Shown one piece after another: positions 1-12,811 of a stretch of DNA of 34,743 bases. The stretch is from Clostridia bacterium (GTDB lineage Bacteria; Bacillota; Clostridia; Christensenellales; Borkfalkiaceae). The position numbers and the translations under genes are program-made. Positions within the stretch are counted from its first letter, which is position 1, and each line of letters opens with the position of its first letter. The stretch is taken from the NCBI GenBank assembly GCA_014805025.1, contig JAAUYR010000017.1:1-34743 (forward strand), written 5' to 3'. The notes under the pieces were generated by a model. That model saw only the letters and a program-made list of their open reading frames with translations. It searched no databases and had not been told where the DNA came from.

Positions 1-597
1 CCACTCGGACATAATTATGAATCTACTTATCAGCCGGCTACTTGTACAGATTACGGAAAGACGGTGTTTACTTGTCAAGTCTGCGGCGACGGGTATTATG
101 AAACTGACGGAACTTATCCCACAGGACATAATTACACAAACACAATAACAAAGACTCCCACTTGTACGGAAGAAGGTGTTTTGCACAGCGCATGCGATAA
201 TTGTGGTTATTCTTATGATACAACAGTTGCTGCGAACGGGCATAGCTACGGCATATCAGATGTTCAGACGTCAAAAGGTAAAACGACAAGAGTTTATACC
301 TGTAAGACGTGTGGGGCTACATATAAACAAGAGTTGGGCGACCAATATGAAGAAGTATCCAACTATGTAGAATATCTGTTTGAACAGTATAGTCCGTACA
401 TGTGGTGGGTATTTCTTGCGGCAGCGGGTATTTGGAGTATAGTCATCGGCGTTATGATTGCCATAGCGCAGAAAAACGAAGAAAAGGAAAAGGCGAAGAA
501 AATGCTTGTGAACTACGTTATAGGTTTGGTAGTTATAGCAGTGATACTTGTCGCTTGTCCTTATTTGATAAGAGGAATAGCCGCTTTGATAACATAA
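1..597 (+). CDS. Surface protein with CxxC repeats and VirB2/TrbC-like C-terminus (5' partial)
   Basis: The reading frame is open from base 1, so the start lies outside the window; 198 codons are visible. Residues 1 to about 105 are repeats of roughly 39 residues that begin GHNY or GHSY and carry a Cys followed by a CxxCG pair, like the Cys-rich repeats of clostridial surface proteins. Two hydrophobic helices follow, around residues 133-155 and 165-195, separated by a short polar loop rich in Lys and Glu (QKNEEKEKAKK). That two-helix plan resembles VirB2/TrbC-type conjugation pilins. The extracellular-repeat reading is firm, the pilin reading is inference. It lies upstream of tnpV and a serine recombinase, so it is probably cargo or transfer machinery of an integrated element. 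Confidence 0.75.
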   Translation, partial: PLGHNYESTYQPATCTDYGKTVFTCQVCGDGYYETDGTYPTGHNYTNTITKTPTCTEEGVLHSACDNCGYSYDTTVAANGHSYGISDVQTSKGKTTRVYTCKTCGATYKQELGDQYEEVSNYVEYLFEQYSPYMWWVFLAAAGIWSIVIGVMIAIAQKNEEKEKAKKMLVNYVIGLVVIAVILVACPYLIRGIAALIT

Positions 598-629
598 CAA
601 GAATTCTAAATAAATTTTCTCTAAACCCC

Positions 630-656
630 TTGACAAACTCTAAAAAATATGATAAT
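630..656 (+). promoter_or_regulatory. Possible sigma-A promoter of tnpV
   Basis: TTGACA at 630-635 and GATAAT at 651-656 are separated by 15 bp. Both boxes are good but the spacer is short, so activity is uncertain. The tnpV ribosome binding site AGGAGG lies at 683-688. Confidence 0.4.
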
Positions 657-694
657 CGTATTAACACGAAAAAAGAATTTTTAGGAGGCTACTT

Positions 695-1057
695 ATGAAC
701 GAACAGAAAGTCATCGAAAAAGCTAATAGGAGGGAAGCATTAACGGTAGAAGAATTTAAAGTCTATCAAAAAAATGCTAAACCTAAAAAGCCCGTCTACG
801 GTAAATATGGTACGCTTGCAAAACAGTATCTTGAAGAACACAATTTCGGAAAGCTCTTGCAAATAGAGAATTTGCCCGAATACTTACACAGTATAGATAA
901 GCAAGCGGAAGAGATTTACGACACTATGTATGCGAAATTGTCCAATGACGAGCGTTATAAAAGAACTAACGACTTTATGGAAAACTATCGCAGGCAGACT
1001 GAAATACAGAAGCTCATAGAAGAAGAAATACTGAACGAGCTTGTGTATGTAGCGTGA
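695..1057 (+). CDS. tnpV: TnpV family transposon-encoded protein
   Basis: This 120-residue protein matches the clostridial TnpV family as I know it: a YGxLxxxYLxEH segment (residues 32-45), a central EIDxQAEE-like stretch (here SIDKQAEEIYD, 66-76), and a C-terminal EEEILNELVY segment. TnpV proteins travel with Tn4451-type elements and other clostridial mobile elements; their biochemical role is unknown. The start is fixed by a strong AGGAGG seven bases upstream of ATG. It is followed after 15 bp by the next small gene, so the two are probably cotranscribed. Length is normal for the family and the gene looks intact. Confidence 0.85.
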   Translation: MNEQKVIEKANRREALTVEEFKVYQKNAKPKKPVYGKYGTLAKQYLEEHNFGKLLQIENLPEYLHSIDKQAEEIYDTMYAKLSNDERYKRTNDFMENYRRQTEIQKLIEEEILNELVYVA

Positions 1058-1072
1058 GGCAGGAGAAAATTT

Positions 1073-1300
1073 ATGACACGAAAAGAAGATACGAAACAGC
1101 GGATTACCCGCAGAAAATACGAAGAACTACATAAGGAAGAGCGGCAAGCCGCTCACAAAGTTTGGGGAACGAGTATAGACCGTTCGCTTGCAGAAGAGAT
1201 AGACAAATATTTGACCCAACACAATATTAAAAAGGTCGAACTGATTTATGCAGGGTATCAAGCCCTGCTGAATCAGTACGGCTCAAAGAAAAATGAGTAG
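1073..1300 (+). CDS. Small basic protein, possible ribbon-helix-helix fold
   Basis: A 75-residue protein with a charged N-terminus (Lys, Arg, Glu, residues 1-28). Its second half could form a strand (WGTSIDR) followed by two helices (SLAEEIDKYLTQH and VELIYAGYQALLNQYG), the order seen in ribbon-helix-helix DNA-binding proteins. The fold is inferred by eye from the hydrophobic pattern, not from a recognised family match. A GGAG ribosome binding site precedes the ATG, and the gene follows tnpV closely, so it is part of the element. A role as element repressor or accessory factor is plausible but unproven. Confidence 0.6.
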   Translation: MTRKEDTKQRITRRKYEELHKEERQAAHKVWGTSIDRSLAEEIDKYLTQHNIKKVELIYAGYQALLNQYGSKKNE

Positions 1301-1434
1301 GAAATCTCGTTTTATTAGCGAGTCTTACTGCCAAAAATTGAAGTGAAACGTCTAAACTTAAAATTAATTTGCTTCATTTAGAGGTTTAATTTTTCTTAAA
1401 AAGAGAAACACTTAAATAATGGAGGACTTGCAAA

Positions 1435-1575
1435 TTGATAAAAGAAGTTAAAGTTTTTATGGGTGAAGAAGAACTTACAAGCGATGACATAAAAAAATAT
1501 ATATGTGTAAGCCCTGTTGTGAACGAAATAGTTAATAGAGTTTATTATAGGAACAAGAAAGCAAAATCATATTGA
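1435..1575 (+). CDS. Small protein upstream of the recombinase, TTG start
   Basis: A 46-residue reading frame starts with TTG at 1435, placed nine bases after a perfect GGAGG (1421-1425), and ends with TGA at 1573. The product (LIKEVKVFMGEEELTSDD and onward) ends in a basic NRVYYRNKKAKSY tail. No in-frame ATG sits near the ribosome binding site, so TTG is the best start. It ends 27 bp before the recombinase start and is probably cotranscribed with it. Small proteins at this position in serine-integrase elements are sometimes directionality factors, but I do not recognise this one and do not assign that role. The 134 bp before it (1301-1434) are AT-rich and show no clear promoter. Confidence 0.55.
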   Translation: MIKEVKVFMGEEELTSDDIKKYICVSPVVNEIVNRVYYRNKKAKSY

Positions 1576-1602
1576 TTTTTCGTATAATGCCAAGGAGGAA
1601 TT

Positions 1603-3078
1603 ATGAAAGAGAAAAGTAAGCAAATAAAATTTGATTTTCCTGTTTACGATAAAATAGACACAAGTTTAACTGATATTACTGCGTTATATTTAAGAGTTTC
1701 GACAGATATGCAAGCGCAAGACGGATACGGACTTGATGTGCAATATTCGGCATTATATAAATATTGTACGGCGTATGAGTTAAGTAATCCCGTTGTGTTC
1801 ATTGATGACGGTTATACAGGTGTAAATGGCAATAGACCTGCATTCCAAAAAATGTTGGAGCTAATGAGTAAGGGGAAAATTAAGTTTGTTATTACTTATA
1901 GTCTTGACCGTATAGGAAGAACTCAAATGCTAATTTTGAAATTCCTTAAAGAAGATTGTGAGAGAGCAAAATGCGATTTTCTTGCGGTAAAGGATAATGT
2001 CGATTCTCGCAGTAAGCAAACTTATGGGATTTTAATTTCAATTCTTTCTATTTTTGCGGAATTTGACCACGATGCAATAGTGGCAAAACTAACTCTTGGC
2101 AGGAAACAAAGAGCATTGGAAGGGTATTGGAAAGGCGGAGGATTACCCCCCTTCGGTTATAAGTACTCAAAGACAGAAAACAACTTAATTGCAGACCCTG
2201 ACAAAGCCTCGTTAATACAAAAGATTTTTGATATGTACAATACAAATGAATATTCGCCAAGACAGATTGCAGAAGCGTTGGGGATTTCAAGCGATGTTGT
2301 GGTTTTCGGAATATTACGTAACAGAACTTATTTGGGGGAAATTACATTTCGTGGCGAACAATATGAGGGCAAACATGAGCGTTTAGTTGATGAGGAATCC
2401 TTTAATAGGGCGCAAGAGTTATTACAAAAAAGAGCTAATAAAACAGGCGACTCTCATTATTTGCTTTCGTCGTTAGTTTATTGTGGAAATTGTAATGCAA
2501 AGATGCGCTATATGAAGTGGGGTAAGGGTAAAAATCAAAAAACAAAAATAATTTGCTATTCCAAATATCCATCAACGAAAAAGAATTTAGTAAAAGACCC
2601 TGACTGTCCAAATTGTATTTATGATGCCGACGAAGTTGAAGCGCAAGTAATAAAAACCATTATGGGTTTTGCGTATAACTACAAGGACGATATAAATAGC
2701 AGAATTGTAACGGAAGAAGATATTGTTGCCGGTTTACAGAAAAAGATAGATACGCTTCAAATAGAATATGGGCGACTATTAAATGCTTATAGGAAATTAG
2801 GCGACGAGAGTGTATTAGAACAGGCTTCCAATGTTAACGAAGAAATAAAGCGTATTGAACGAGATATTGAGGAAGAAAAAGAAAAGCAAACGATAGCAAA
2901 GAAAATTGAAGAAAATGAAAATATGCTGCGAACTCTTCCCGACATGTGGCCGCGAATGACTAACGTCGAACGGCAGGCAGTAATAAAATCTATCGTTAAA
3001 AAGGTTATTCTGCAAGACGGCGAAATCTCTGTTGTGTTAAATAAAACTCAATATGAAAAAAATATTTTAGTGAAATAA
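1603..3078 (+). CDS. Large serine recombinase (TnpX/integrase type)
   Basis: A 491-residue site-specific DNA recombinase that cuts and rejoins attachment sites to integrate or excise its element. The resolvase-like catalytic domain spans about residues 25-165: the nucleophile is Ser33 in LRVS, and the active-site arginines lie in YSLDRIGR (Arg103, Arg106). A recombinase domain follows (about 175-275, with PPFGYKY). A zinc ribbon is formed by Cys294/Cys297 and Cys335/Cys338, with an extra Cys318. A Glu/Lys-rich coiled coil follows at about 375-440. This is the full domain set of the family and no key residue is missing. A strong AAGGAGG at 1592-1598 fixes the start. It reads towards the element end, which lies about 140 bp downstream inside sigG. 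Confidence 0.95.
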   Translation: MKEKSKQIKFDFPVYDKIDTSLTDITALYLRVSTDMQAQDGYGLDVQYSALYKYCTAYELSNPVVFIDDGYTGVNGNRPAFQKMLELMSKGKIKFVITYSLDRIGRTQMLILKFLKEDCERAKCDFLAVKDNVDSRSKQTYGILISILSIFAEFDHDAIVAKLTLGRKQRALEGYWKGGGLPPFGYKYSKTENNLIADPDKASLIQKIFDMYNTNEYSPRQIAEALGISSDVVVFGILRNRTYLGEITFRGEQYEGKHERLVDEESFNRAQELLQKRANKTGDSHYLLSSLVYCGNCNAKMRYMKWGKGKNQKTKIICYSKYPSTKKNLVKDPDCPNCIYDADEVEAQVIKTIMGFAYNYKDDINSRIVTEEDIVAGLQKKIDTLQIEYGRLLNAYRKLGDESVLEQASNVNEEIKRIERDIEEEKEKQTIAKKIEENENMLRTLPDMWPRMTNVERQAVIKSIVKKVILQDGEISVVLNKTQYEKNILVK

Positions 3079-3083
3079 AACAA

Positions 3084-3119
3084 GGCGGTATGCTGATACA
3101 GCGTATCGCCTAATTTGTT
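3084..3119 (+). terminator. Hairpin terminator after the recombinase
   Basis: GGCGGTATGCTG (3084-3095) pairs with CAGCGTATCGCC (3099-3110) through a three-base loop, all 12 positions pairing if two G-U pairs are allowed. A weak T-rich stretch follows. It begins six bases after the recombinase stop codon. Confidence 0.6.
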
Positions 3120-3149
3120 ATTGTTGTATGGCAATTTTTATACAAAGGC

Positions 3150-3178
3150 TTGCAATTGCTCTCAATATATGCTATACT
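3150..3178 (+). promoter_or_regulatory. Outward-facing promoter at the element end
   Basis: TTGCAA (3150-3155) and TATACT (3173-3178) are separated by exactly 17 bp, a good sigma-A promoter. It lies after the recombinase terminator and reads across the right junction into the sigG 3' fragment. In an excised circle it would instead read into the left end of the element. Confidence 0.65.
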
Positions 3179-3204
3179 TTAAGCAATAAATCAAGGAAAT
3201 AGTT

Positions 3205-3226
3205 TCGCCATACAAGTGTCATTCCT
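3205..3226. other. Right attachment junction (approximate)
   Basis: From codon CCT at 3224 onward the frame reads PMILGEIKRYLRD, the conserved start of SigG region 3 (usual family text: AVPMIIGEIRRYLRD). Upstream in the same frame it reads RHTSVI and soon meets a TAG stop near 3201, which no SigG has. The recombined site should therefore lie within these bases. The core dinucleotide cannot be named without the left end. Confidence 0.6.
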
Positions 3227-3712
3227 ATGATACTCGGCGAAATTAAAAGGTATCTTCGCGACGGCAATTCTTTGAGAGTTTCGCGCTCGATAAGGGATAC
3301 CGCTTACCAAATATTAAAAGTGCGCGAAAAGCTAGAAGAGGTTGACGAGGAAGTAACTTACGATAAAATCGCCAAAGAAATGAACGTTGCCGTATCCGAG
3401 GTGGCGTACGCGCTGGACGCGATTTCCGACCCCGTATCTTTATACGAGCCCGTATATAATAAGGCAGGGGATACGCTACTTTTAATGGACCAGATTTTCG
3501 ACGAAAAGAACAACGACGAGGTCTGGACGGAAAAAGCGGCGCTGTACGAGGCCATAAACCGTTTGGAGGGTCGCGAGAAAAGAATTCTGTTTTTGAGGTA
3601 CTTCGAGGGCAAAACCCAAACGGAAATTTCCCGAGAGGTTGGCATATCTCAGGCTCAGGTATCGCGCCTTGAAAAGACTGCGTTAAAGCAAATTAAGACT
3701 TGTATTTCGTAA
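3227..3712 (+). pseudogene. sigG: 3' fragment of sporulation sigma factor SigG, interrupted by the element
   Basis: The 161 codons match the C-terminal 60 percent of SigG, the late forespore-specific sigma factor: MILGEIKRYLRDGNSLRVSR, then DAISDPVSLYEPVY, DEKNND, and the region 4 helix-turn-helix in RYFEGKTQTEISREVG with ISQAQVSRLEK. Intact SigG is about 257 residues, so region 1.2 and most of region 2 (core binding and -10 recognition) are missing, and the break is at the element boundary. Regions 3 and 4 show no frameshift or internal stop, so the interruption may be recent or reversible. An ATG happens to lie at 3227 (the internal Met of PMIL), but no good ribosome binding site precedes it. 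The 5' part is expected beyond the left end of the element. Confidence 0.88.
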
Positions 3713-4725: not shown

Positions 4726-4795
4726 AAGTCGAAAAAGACTTGACAAATCATTTTTGACTTAATATAATGGCTTAAAAATAAGTCATTTTTGACTT
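4726..4795. promoter_or_regulatory. Three repressor operators AAGTC-N6-GACTT
   Basis: Three 16-bp sites: AAGTCGAAAAAGACTT (4726-4741), AAATCATTTTTGACTT (4745-4760, one mismatched half) and AAGTCATTTTTGACTT (4780-4795). Start-to-start spacing is 19 and 35 bp. Site 1 overlaps the -35 box, site 2 fills the spacer, and site 3 covers the region just after the expected transcription start of the surface gene. They are most simply operators of the adjacent XRE repressor. Confidence 0.8.
4740..4768 (+). promoter_or_regulatory. Consensus sigma-A promoter of the LRR/MBG surface gene
   Basis: TTGACA (4740-4745), a 17-bp spacer and TATAAT (4763-4768): both boxes are perfect consensus. Such a strong promoter needs tight control, which fits the operators that overlap it. 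Confidence 0.9.
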
Positions 4796-4820
4796 GAAAC
4801 AAAAACAAGGAGAATTGTCT

Positions 4821-7800
4821 ATGAAACAAAAAGTAGGTAAACTGCGGCTGTTATTATTATCGGTATTATCGCTGATAGTATGTATAGCCGCAAGCACATT
4901 CGTCGGAATTAATTTCGGCGATAAATTATTCGTCTCTGCCGACGCGTTAGAGAAGGACGAAAACGGAAATATTATTTTGGAGGACGAGAAATACTTCGAT
5001 ATAAGCGGTACGACTTTAAACGGGTTATCGGCGGAGGGCTATAAAGTTCTCGGTTGTTCGGTTTACAGTCCACAGGCAATCAAGACGCACTTCGTTGTTA
5101 AAGTTCCGGATAAGGTTACGAATATGGCAGGTCTATGTTTTAGCGGTTGCAGAGCGTTATACGGAATAGAGTTTCCCGAGAATATGGTTTCATTAGGTGA
5201 CCATTCTATCAGATGGACGAACGTAACTAAACTGCACGTACCTGCAAAAGTTAATTCCGCGAATTTAATCGGTGCCAACGTCTATCTTGAAAGCATAACG
5301 GTTGACCCTGACAATACTACGTACAAGGATATCAACGGCGAATGTCTTGTTAATAAAGCGGGCACAGTTTTATATAAGGGCACCGGAGCGGCGGCGCAAC
5401 ATTTAACTGATGATGAATACTCTTCGATAACTACGCTTGCTCAACTTTCGTTTTCATGCGAAAAGGGTTTTACCGATTTAACTATACCTAAAAACGTTAC
5501 AACGATAGGAAACTATGCATTTCAGATGTCAAGTTTACAAAATATTTCGGTTGATTCTGAAAATGAAAAATTTTCTGTTGAAAATAACTGTTTGATAAAT
5601 TCCAACGGTGCGGTTGTTCTTGCAGCAGGAGGCGATGACGGAATTGTAAACATTCCCGAGGGTACGGAAGAAATTTTAGCTAACGCATGCAGTCTTTTAA
5701 ATAACAAAATTATTAACGTGCCTGCAAGCTTAACAAAGCTTGGCATAGCGGCGTTCAACGCACCGTATCTTGAAGATGTAATTGTTGCCGATGACCACCC
5801 GTATCTTTACAGTAACGACCAGACTACGGGCAACCCTCTGCATTGTGTAATCTTACGCGAAACCGACGACAGCGGAGAATTTACCGGCAAGGAAATTTTG
5901 CATACAGGTACCGCAAATAAAGACATGGTTGTACCTAAGGGAGTGTCTGAAATCGGCGCAAGGGCCTTTCAGAATATGTTTGGTTTAACTGAATTTGCGG
6001 TTTCGAGTTCGGTTACGGTAGTCGGAGCATACGCTTTTCAAAATTCCGGATTGGAAAAACTGACTATACACAACAATATCGGCGAATTCGGTGATGACGT
6101 ATTTGGACTGTCGCCGTATTATGGCAACGAAGACAACTGGGACGGTAGCGACGTTTTTTACGTTGAACAATATCTTGTCAGTGTCAGTAAGTTGGTAAGC
6201 GGAAAATATACCGTAAGGGCAGGCACGAGCGTTATCGTCGGCGGTTCATTTCAAAATTGCACTTCGCTTGAATATGTTGAGTTTCCCGATAGTGTAACTT
6301 ATATCGGAGGTTCAGCGTTTGTTAATTGCACTAAAATAATACAGATAAATTTATCTGCCAGTAATAAAACCAAATATGAAGCAGAAGCATTTGCCGGCGC
6401 AGAAAAAGCAAAAATAGTTGCGCCCAATTACGAAATTTATCAAAAAGTTGCCGCTCAGGTAGTGACAAACAAAGCTAACCTTACATACGAAACAACCGTA
6501 ACGGTAACCGTCGGCAGAACAAAAGCAAACTTGACCAAGCTTGCAAATAATAAGCTCGGCTACAAAAAAGCAAGCGGCGGCTTGTGGACGAATAGCGGCG
6601 CGTTCGAAGTCGGCGGTATTGATATAAGCGACGTTGCGTACTGGACTATTAACGACGGCGATACGCATTATACAACGGCTCAGCTTGCTTCGTATAAGCT
6701 GCCCATAGACGGCAGTACTGTTGCCATTACGGCTTACGCGGCGGACGATACAACCAACATCCCCGTAACTTTGGTTAAGCCCGAGGCCACCGACCTTGAA
6801 ATAACTTACGGCAACAGCGAACAGTTCAGCGCCGAAGAGGAGTACGAGGGTTTCTCGTACAGCACAATGAAAGTAACCTATCAGGGCGAGGGCTATGCCG
6901 AAAGCGAGCAGATTCCCTACGAGTGCGGCGAGTACACGGTAACGGTTTATCCCATGACGGCCGACTGGAAGGATACTTCCGACAGGCAAGCGTACGTTAT
7001 AGGCACTTTGACAATTAAACCTGCGGAAGTACAGGTTATATGGCTTGGCGCAGGCGAAAGCACAAGCGACTTCGAATACGTTTACGACGGGAAATCGCAC
7101 TTGCCCACGGCTTACTTTATAGACGTAAACGGCGACAAGGTTTGGCTTAAAGGTTACATATCTGTTGCCGACGGAAACGGCATTGCGGCGGCTACCTATA
7201 CCGCGCAGCTTGTAATCGGCGAAAACGATTTTACTAACTATACGTTTAATGGCAGTACGGAAAGGTCTTACACGGTAGCTCAGCGCGAAGTAGTAGTTAC
7301 CTGGTCCGAAGAAACGCTGTTCGATTATACCGGTCACTCGGTTGTGCCCGAACTCAGCTGGACTACGGACTATAACGACGGAAGCTTTACAGTTGAATAC
7401 TCGCTTACGGCAAAGGACGGCAGCGAGCTTACCGACGGCAAGGCGGTAAAGCCCGGCGAATATACCATAACTTTGACGCTTACGGGCAGCGATAACTATT
7501 GCATAGCCGAAAGCTCGCTTACGTTCGAGTTCACGATAGACGAGCCGGGTGCAGGCATAATCTATTGGGAAAACGTAGAGTTCGCTTACGACGGCACGAT
7601 TAAGCTTCCTACGGCGTTCTACTACGACCCGTTGAACGATAACGAAAAGACTTTCATTACCGAGGGCGTAATCGGCGGCGCGTACAATGCCGGAACGCAT
7701 ACGGCGAAGATTTCCGCATGGGTACTTGCAAAGTATAACCTTAAAGGCGTAACCGAGTGCAAGTACACGATACTCAAAAAGGAAGTAAATATCGAGTGGG

Positions 7801-8435
7801 ATATAGAGCTTGAATTCGTATACAACGGCAAGCTGCAAAAACCCGTGGCGTTCATTACCGGTGTTAACGGCGAGCGCATAATGCTTGACGTAACGGTAGA
7901 CGGCGGCATAGACGCAGGCGAATATACCGCGATAGTAAGCGCACAGACGTTTGCTAACTATGCGATAGTCGGCGGCGATTACGAAAAAGTGTTCAATATA
8001 GAAAAGAAGACGTTAACCGCGGTTTGGACGGGAAGCGAGTTCGAGTACGACGGTACGGAGCAGACGGCAACGTTCAGTATAGCCGGCTATAACGGCTCAA
8101 CGACGGTAGAGTACTATACGCTTTCCGGCGAAAAGCTCGGCGGCAAACCCGTAGAGGCAGGCACGTACGTTATGAAGGTAACGCTTGACGATACTAACTA
8201 CGAGCTTACAAACGGAAGCTTCACGTTCTCGATAGAGCCCATAGGCAGCATTACTACCAAGGACGGCGGAATTAACGGGCTTGTAATCGGGCTTATAATC
8301 GCGATAGGTACGGTAGCGCTCATATCGCTTATAGCACTGTTTGTTGCGCTCCGCAGAAGGAAAGCGGAAGATGACGACGGGTTCAACGACTTGGCGTACG
8401 ATAACGACGGTTTCTACGAAGATTATAACGGTTAA
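4821..8435 (+). CDS. Large surface protein: BspA-type LRR head, six MBG-like repeats, membrane anchor
   Basis: The ATG at 4821 follows AAGGAGA by eight bases; an upstream in-frame TTG at 4794 lies inside operator 3 and is unlikely. The product is 1204 residues. Residues 1 to about 42 are a signal peptide ending near VSADA. Residues about 95-535 are BspA-type leucine-rich repeats (for example IGNYAFQ, IGARAFQN, IGGSAFVNC). Residues about 650-1145 hold six MBG-like beta repeats of 75-90 residues, each with a (Y/F)-(D/N/T)-G motif, AGxYTA-like and NYxL-like motifs, and a closing VxxxW. One membrane helix (about 1154-1176) is followed by RRRK and an acidic tail with two DGF motifs. There is no LPXTG signal. 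It is likely an adhesin displayed on the cell membrane. Control is by the adjacent XRE repressor. The LRR half is visibly more AT-rich than the MBG half. Confidence 0.9.
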   Translation: MKQKVGKLRLLLLSVLSLIVCIAASTFVGINFGDKLFVSADALEKDENGNIILEDEKYFDISGTTLNGLSAEGYKVLGCSVYSPQAIKTHFVVKVPDKVTNMAGLCFSGCRALYGIEFPENMVSLGDHSIRWTNVTKLHVPAKVNSANLIGANVYLESITVDPDNTTYKDINGECLVNKAGTVLYKGTGAAAQHLTDDEYSSITTLAQLSFSCEKGFTDLTIPKNVTTIGNYAFQMSSLQNISVDSENEKFSVENNCLINSNGAVVLAAGGDDGIVNIPEGTEEILANACSLLNNKIINVPASLTKLGIAAFNAPYLEDVIVADDHPYLYSNDQTTGNPLHCVILRETDDSGEFTGKEILHTGTANKDMVVPKGVSEIGARAFQNMFGLTEFAVSSSVTVVGAYAFQNSGLEKLTIHNNIGEFGDDVFGLSPYYGNEDNWDGSDVFYVEQYLVSVSKLVSGKYTVRAGTSVIVGGSFQNCTSLEYVEFPDSVTYIGGSAFVNCTKIIQINLSASNKTKYEAEAFAGAEKAKIVAPNYEIYQKVAAQVVTNKANLTYETTVTVTVGRTKANLTKLANNKLGYKKASGGLWTNSGAFEVGGIDISDVAYWTINDGDTHYTTAQLASYKLPIDGSTVAITAYAADDTTNIPVTLVKPEATDLEITYGNSEQFSAEEEYEGFSYSTMKVTYQGEGYAESEQIPYECGEYTVTVYPMTADWKDTSDRQAYVIGTLTIKPAEVQVIWLGAGESTSDFEYVYDGKSHLPTAYFIDVNGDKVWLKGYISVADGNGIAAATYTAQLVIGENDFTNYTFNGSTERSYTVAQREVVVTWSEETLFDYTGHSVVPELSWTTDYNDGSFTVEYSLTAKDGSELTDGKAVKPGEYTITLTLTGSDNYCIAESSLTFEFTIDEPGAGIIYWENVEFAYDGTIKLPTAFYYDPLNDNEKTFITEGVIGGAYNAGTHTAKISAWVLAKYNLKGVTECKYTILKKEVNIEWDIELEFVYNGKLQKPVAFITGVNGERIMLDVTVDGGIDAGEYTAIVSAQTFANYAIVGGDYEKVFNIEKKTLTAVWTGSEFEYDGTEQTATFSIAGYNGSTTVEYYTLSGEKLGGKPVEAGTYVMKVTLDDTNYELTNGSFTFSIEPIGSITTKDGGINGLVIGLIIAIGTVALISLIALFVALRRRKAEDDDGFNDLAYDNDGFYEDYNG

Positions 8436-10870: not shown

Positions 10871-12811
<1,941 letters not shown>

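Follow-up and report, generated by a model that had tools for sequence, protein, structure and literature searches.

The intervening elements that split sporulation genes are the closest described counterparts of the DNA considered here, a serine-recombinase element that lies inside the sporulation sigma factor gene sigG at the beginning of a 34,743-nucleotide stretch from a Clostridia bacterium (contig JAAUYR010000017.1 of assembly GCA_014805025.1, hereafter the window). In the parts of the literature drawn on here, the skin elements split sigK in Bacillus subtilis and in Clostridioides difficile, where the element is named skinCd, and their excision restores the reading frame, with CD1234 as the directionality factor of skinCd (PMC5025042). 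The SPbeta prophage occupies spsM; its recombinase is made during growth and a small factor, SprB, times its excision, the targets being referred to as mother cell-specific genes (PMC4191935). The split genes given in PMC10747680 are sigK, spsM, spoVFB, gerE, and yabG, and the word sigG does not occur in it. Our literature search on sigG and spoIIIG found no report of an element in this gene. Since sigG is expressed in the forespore, the rule that excision is confined to the mother cell is expected to fail here.

The element in sigG shares several traits with these systems. As in skinCd, the gene for a large serine recombinase directly precedes the 3' portion of the interrupted gene (PMC5025042); as in SPbeta, such a recombinase goes together with attachment sites within a sporulation gene (PMC4191935); as in gin, which lies in gerE and has no phage genes, an imperfect inverted repeat flanks the central bases of the attachment (att) sites (PMC5595907); and as with yin in yabG and vfbin in spoVFB, elements of varied origin are found inside sporulation genes (PMC10747680). 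As far as the sources at hand describe them, gin, yin, and vfbin differ in their target genes and recombinases, and SPbeta differs in being a phage with a lytic cycle whose excision is shown only in the mother cell, where sprB has its own promoter, whereas the gene at the left end of the sigG element sits behind the promoter of the interrupted gene (PMC4191935). Regulated excision is proven for the sigK skin (PMC5025042) and is a proposal for the sigG elements; unlike the sigK skin, they spread between genera and carry type IV secretion system (T4SS) or metabolic genes. The two genes also work in different cells: sigK in the mother cell, the DNA of which is discarded, and sigG in the forespore, the DNA of which passes into the spore. 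What is new with respect to the skin-type elements covered by these sources is the target, a forespore gene, the described cases being those of the mother cell.

The attachment site inside sigG

The window is the whole of contig C17 in a 1.32-Mb genome (G000 in our numbering; 83 contigs, 84.8% complete), and its base 1 is a contig edge, not an end of the element. The original prediction placed the recombinase as the last gene of the element, followed by a frame that turns into SigG, and this is indeed the layout: a large serine recombinase of 491 amino acids (aa) occupies positions 1603 to 3078 of the forward strand, on which the features described for positions 1 to 3712 all lie, and the SigG frame runs from a Pro codon at 3224–3226 to the natural stop at 3710–3712. 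All three domains of the recombinase exceed their cut-offs, namely PF00239 (Resolvase, 90.6 bits), PF07508 (Recombinase, 41.2 bits), and PF13408 (Zn-ribbon, 35.8 bits), and the protein matches a PHROG integrase family (4.2e-90). The SigG part corresponds to residues 89–252 (hmmscan) and keeps, as had been claimed, sigma regions 3 and 4, the latter far over the Pfam cut-off and the former barely over it.

A 5' part of sigG was expected at the left end of the element, and it was found on another contig, C18, where residues 1–96 are encoded at 11881–12164, directly 3' of spoIIGA and sigE. The two halves joined score 372.5 bits against the NCBIfam SigG model NF006071, whose cut-off is 372, while each half taken singly falls below it (140.6 and 226.9 bits). 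Under the stricter model TIGR02850 the joined protein stays below the cut-off (358 vs 457 bits), which is reached by none of 61 genomes of the genus, and among the matches listed for the joined protein none was more than 95% identical. A second intact sigG, which would have spoken against the prediction, was not found in this 84.8%-complete assembly.

Twelve elements with both halves of the gene, that of the window included, were compared after cutting their junctions at the codon following FSTY[AG]V. In all 12, the right end, two core bases, and the left end form an imperfect inverted repeat, with 16–21 of 26 positions (mean 17.7) complementary between the arms of one element, against 7.2 ± 2.2 in 60,000 shuffles, the highest of which reached 17; arms mixed between different elements are complementary at 14.4 of 26, the elements being related. 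The mean complementarity is 0.69 when centered on the core and drops to 0.15–0.35 when the center is shifted by 1–6 bases. The short core common to both junctions, also foreseen, is placed by this repeat at the dinucleotide CC in 11 of the 12; in G399, with the host codon TCA (Ser), it is TC. In the window, the right half of the repeat (the element side of attR, 3198–3223) is complementary to the left end on C18 at 20 of 26 positions, and the predicted crossover dinucleotide, bases 1 and 2 of the Pro codon, lies at 3224–3225; the 3' part of sigG then extends over 3226–3712.

The pairing of C17 with C18 rests on these arms of the predicted attP, which link the two contigs independently of the assembly. 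One may still ask whether the link is a coincidence of assembly or binning, given that the halves lie on separate contigs of a fragmented and incomplete genome, and that the downstream neighbor differs from that of the relatives: rpsU (3833) and the next open reading frame (ORF) follow sigG in none of 37 continuous sigG loci, read from 34 relatives and mostly top-scoring ones, hence a biased set, so that this neighbor lends no support. The contig ends, on the other hand, are the arms of one inverted repeat, and in G400 and G169 the entire arrangement is held within one contig, which makes an artifact extremely unlikely.

Joining the host 5' part, the core, and the host 3' part gives a frame that is open across the junction in all 12 cases. 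For G400, the joined SigG agrees at every one of 259 residues with a protein, P0164, that occurs in 166 contigs; the empty site thus exists in nature, although this protein carries no information on the timing of excision. In anatomy, G000 shows a sporulation gene split in frame with both halves intact, an internal site-specific recombinase, a short core, and inverted-repeat att sites, as a skin-type element does. From this anatomy, an integrated element at a fixed site inside sigG is a nearly certain reading, its recombinase having likely inserted it at the sigG attachment site, and recombination of attL with attR at the core would very probably restore FSTYAVP-MILGEI and so rebuild the gene. 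Taken as a whole explanation, a fixed-site serine-recombinase element whose precise excision rejoins SigG is the one we favor, with moderate confidence.

Distribution and mobility

The interruption recurs: in 17 genomes sigG is broken at one and the same codon, with both halves found in 12, the 3' junction alone in four (G080, G096, G229, G334), and the 5' junction alone in G321, where no 3' half was found. A query with the 3' part matched 79 of 93 genomes of the genus (E ≤ 1e-32; G009 was read from a second search), and in five of these (G000, G031, G054, G080, G081) it stands at that codon behind foreign sequence. In 73 genomes the frame continues upstream across the site, over at least 182 residues, and the remaining one (G047) is cut by the end of its contig.

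The gene at the left end of the element follows the same pattern. Its 273-aa product finds matches in 11 of 398 family genomes (E ≤ 1e-10), of which 10 carry the gene directly 3' of a truncated sigG. The exception, G117, has an intact sigG, and its 174-aa homologue (L092, 1453–1977), away from sigG, may mark a related element elsewhere. An alignment scan of the genomes of 84,980 species returned 10 loci, all of them at a truncated sigG; eight belong to genomes already in the family set and two are new (L103 and L104, from G399 and G400). The ten records are metagenome-assembled genomes of uncultured Clostridia, Candidatus Gallimonas merdae among them, and as the relatives of the G400 SigG carry Oscillospiraceae names, more than one lineage is probably involved. 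In one database protein, P0012, the left-end part is preceded by an unrelated beginning that closes with STYPFP, which resembles the FSTYAVP site of sigG; here an element seems to have inserted off target, in a different gene that we take to be acetyltransferase-like.

The recombinase query matched 15 of the 398 family genomes (E ≤ 1e-110) and added G096, G229, and G334, for which only the 3' junction was read. A sigG half lies within 1.5 kb of the recombinase in nine, and at 3.9 kb within the same element in G169; five show no link to sigG, two of these (G335 and G328) being cut by a contig edge. The recombinases of the other three, G147, G331, and G338 (L154, L156, and L152), are 54–63% identical and have no sigG in the 1.5-kb flank, which suggests other attachment sites or other element layouts. 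On this sequence record, a family of serine-recombinase elements repeatedly uses sigG as its attachment site, and the arrangement is real and not an artifact.

The left ends of elements from different genera are 88–100% identical, while the sigG 5' parts beside them are 70–75% identical: 571 left-end bases are the same in G101 (g2) and G164 (g4), with sigG at 70%; G101 and G159 agree at 97.7% over 860 element bases, with sigG at 71%; and G101 and G137 share 87.8% of the left end, with sigG at 75%. G080 and G081, whose sigG halves differ, share an identical right end of 47 bases. By these comparisons, we are looking at mobile elements spreading between genera and not at one fixed skin. The analogy with skin drawn in the original prediction stands for the anatomy, and probably for the chemistry, but because the elements move between genera they are better described as mobile integrative elements that attach in sigG than as "skin-type".

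This mobility also bears on the main competing explanation, namely that insertion simply abolishes sporulation, sigG being used for its conserved sequence, with no developmental control and no spores unless the element leaves by chance; the element may even gain from keeping its host out of dormancy. Movement between genera and varied cargo (T4SS, amino-acid, sugar, and possibly defense genes) make repeated recent insertion likely, sigG of the G400 type is found both intact (P0164) and interrupted (P0042), and G321 shows no 3' half, all of which such a loss would account for. We return to it below, after the genes of the elements.

Gene content of the elements

Two complete elements lie in single contigs and measure, from core to core, 3,821 bases (G400) and 9,251 bases (G169). 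Common to the elements are the att sites, the left-end gene, and a recombinase preceded by a small ORF. The recombinase is on the sigG 3' side in G000, G080, G096, G101, G137, G159, G169, G229, G334, G399, and G400, in several cases with intervening genes before the 3' half, as over the 3.9 kb in G169, and at the left end in G031; it was not seen in the partly assembled elements of G054, G164, G249, and G081.

In the window, the right end of the element opens with a T4SS pilin-like membrane protein with N-terminal repeats (1–597), element cargo that is open at the contig edge and reaches 26.3 bits with the Pfam T4SS_pilin model, for which the cut-off is 26.6; a counterpart 76% identical adjoins the recombinase in G080. 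There follow a TnpV-like protein (695–1057; Pfam TnpV, 2.1e-12), which is near the recombinase also in G080, G031, G101, and G159, and a conserved 75-aa ORF of the recombinase module (1073–1300; homologues in G080, G137, G159, and G101). A 46-aa ORF with a TTG start (1435–1575) stands directly 5' of the recombinase; homologues precede the recombinase in G080, G031, G169, G137, G159, and G101, a similar ORF is seen by eye in G399 and G400, and a PHROG search gave no match.

About 9.2 kb of the same element lie on C18, and the stretch between C18 and C17 is unassembled. The first gene after the sigG 5' half is the 273-aa ORF with a good ribosome-binding site that forms the left end of the element; the remaining ~8 kb encode a Y-family polymerase, a YpsA-like protein, an ABC ATPase, and others. 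At the end of C18, an unusually long ABC ATPase of MalK/MsmX type (783 aa; L017, 9171–11522) and a weakly rhamnogalacturonidase-like protein (L017, 11515–12376) are apparently both inside the same element. Outside it, downstream of sigG, the window holds an ORF for a 1213-aa repeat protein with a TTG start (4794–8435).

The Tn4451 group consists of integrative conjugative elements with a serine recombinase and TnpV, and the likeness extends to the pilin and a TraG/VirB4-type ATPase in G080 as well as to a promoter across the circle junction; to our knowledge, its members are not tied to a sporulation gene. The ATPase in G080 is an 880-aa ORF beside the pilin and the recombinase (P-loop_TraG, 9e-15), and G031 has an ORF of similar size, not domain-scanned. 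For the element of the window, type IV secretion is represented by the borderline pilin alone, the middle of the element being unassembled. Other cargo differs: G400 carries a pilin-like gene and G249 glycosidases, and in G169 a TIR-TPR protein and a weakly HipA-like/HTH pair (L135, 2634–4955 and 5001–6327) are possibly defense genes. The G399 element (L145, 1–6453, and L146, 431–7331) has an aminotransferase, LeuA, and an acetolactate synthase-like protein on its left side, and its right side holds IlvD, an isopropylmalate dehydrogenase-type gene, and a threonine dehydratase-like gene; it is a branched-chain amino-acid biosynthetic island in sigG.

Excision, sporulation, and heredity

At the left end of the element, one gene family lies directly 3' of the truncated sigG at all 13 left junctions read (G081 being cut after the first codons), with its own ribosome-binding site, as judged by eye, and positioned to receive the host sigG transcript. 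Its product has a weak HNH_repeat similarity, below the cut-off, and an all-helical repeat model of moderate confidence, and is a predicted multi-repeat helical protein that probably binds DNA. The start codon of this gene is in the sigG frame despite intervening stops in G000, G031, and G249, and also in G054 (L030, L042, L017, L088), a hint of a frame constraint or of common descent. An in-frame fusion of the SigG 5' part to this protein, acting as a chimeric sigma factor made of region 2 and the DNA-binding part of the element, is a very improbable use of this arrangement.

At the right, a promoter-like site of the sigma-A type (TTGCAA-17-TATACT, 3150–3178) points outward, facing the 3' part of sigG when the element is integrated. 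Such a site, with at most three mismatches and a 17-base spacing, begins 71–96 bases before the core end in 10 of 12 elements (all but G169 and G400), four of the ten being near-identical copies; among 3000 random segments, 348 have a site as good. In the circular form, by its orientation, it would face the left-end gene.

Since the left-end gene sits directly behind the 5' end of sigG, we propose that excision is linked to sporulation, a tentative view that falls a little short of probable. The host sigG promoter would transcribe the left-end gene in the forespore, so that, at the start of sporulation, the forespore program would turn on a regulator of excision that the element itself encodes; the left-end protein would set the direction of recombination, with the product of the small ORF 5' of the recombinase as an alternative candidate directionality factor; and the recombinase would join attL and attR at the core, freeing a circle and restoring sigG. 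To persist, the element would then have to travel as a circle inside the spore and insert again at attB once the spore has germinated. As a complete chain, this switch in the forespore lineage, from sigG promoter to regulator, excision, and return, is unlikely. One observation weighs against the proposal: the right-end promoter in the circle would keep the left-end protein on, which suits a role in maintenance or transfer as well as one in excision, or better. At the recombinase, no sporulation-type promoter was seen by eye, which agrees with insertional loss.

That loss, as opposed to a regulated exit, is a reading we regard as possible though clearly less than probable. The frames open across every join speak against it, as do the sporulation genes of the carriers: each of the five split genomes of the genus retains two SpoVAC/SpoVAEB genes. 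Among the 14 genomes without a match to the sigG 3' part, six (G003, G024, G042, G045, G063, G066) have no SpoVA gene, seven have two, and one has one; since G039 and G087 keep a sigG match without SpoVA, the absence of SpoVA is by itself no proof of lost sporulation. Decay of flanking sporulation genes, which would have spoken against the original prediction, is not seen in the part examined, the SpoVA genes, spoIIGA, and sigE being present and open. Fusions of sigG with the left-end gene also head clusters of 119, 59, and 103 sequences (members not inspected), which would be odd for a strongly harmful insertion. The sigG 3' parts of carriers have low pN/pS values within the genus (0.03–0.15; the median of 32 intact genes is 0.07), but say nothing on selection while interrupted because the divergence mostly predates any insertion.

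Under the favored reading, an element that rejoins SigG on precise excision, production of SigG would need the exit of the element, likely tying the formation of spores to excision. The difficulty raised by the original prediction, that excision in the forespore is inherited, is a real one. DNA excised in the mother cell is a dead end, whereas sigG acts in the cell that becomes the spore, and because the gene is needed there, an element within it must either sterilize the sporulation of its host or leave and return. With 17 genomes, a two-base crossover, and complete elements of 3.8 and 9.3 kb, the question of switch or sterilizer can now be tested. Metagenome-assembled genomes scored as having a truncated sigG may still sporulate, and, if the switch is true, no intervening element before this one would have lain in a forespore gene, nor would any have had an excision that must be heritably reversed in each generation.
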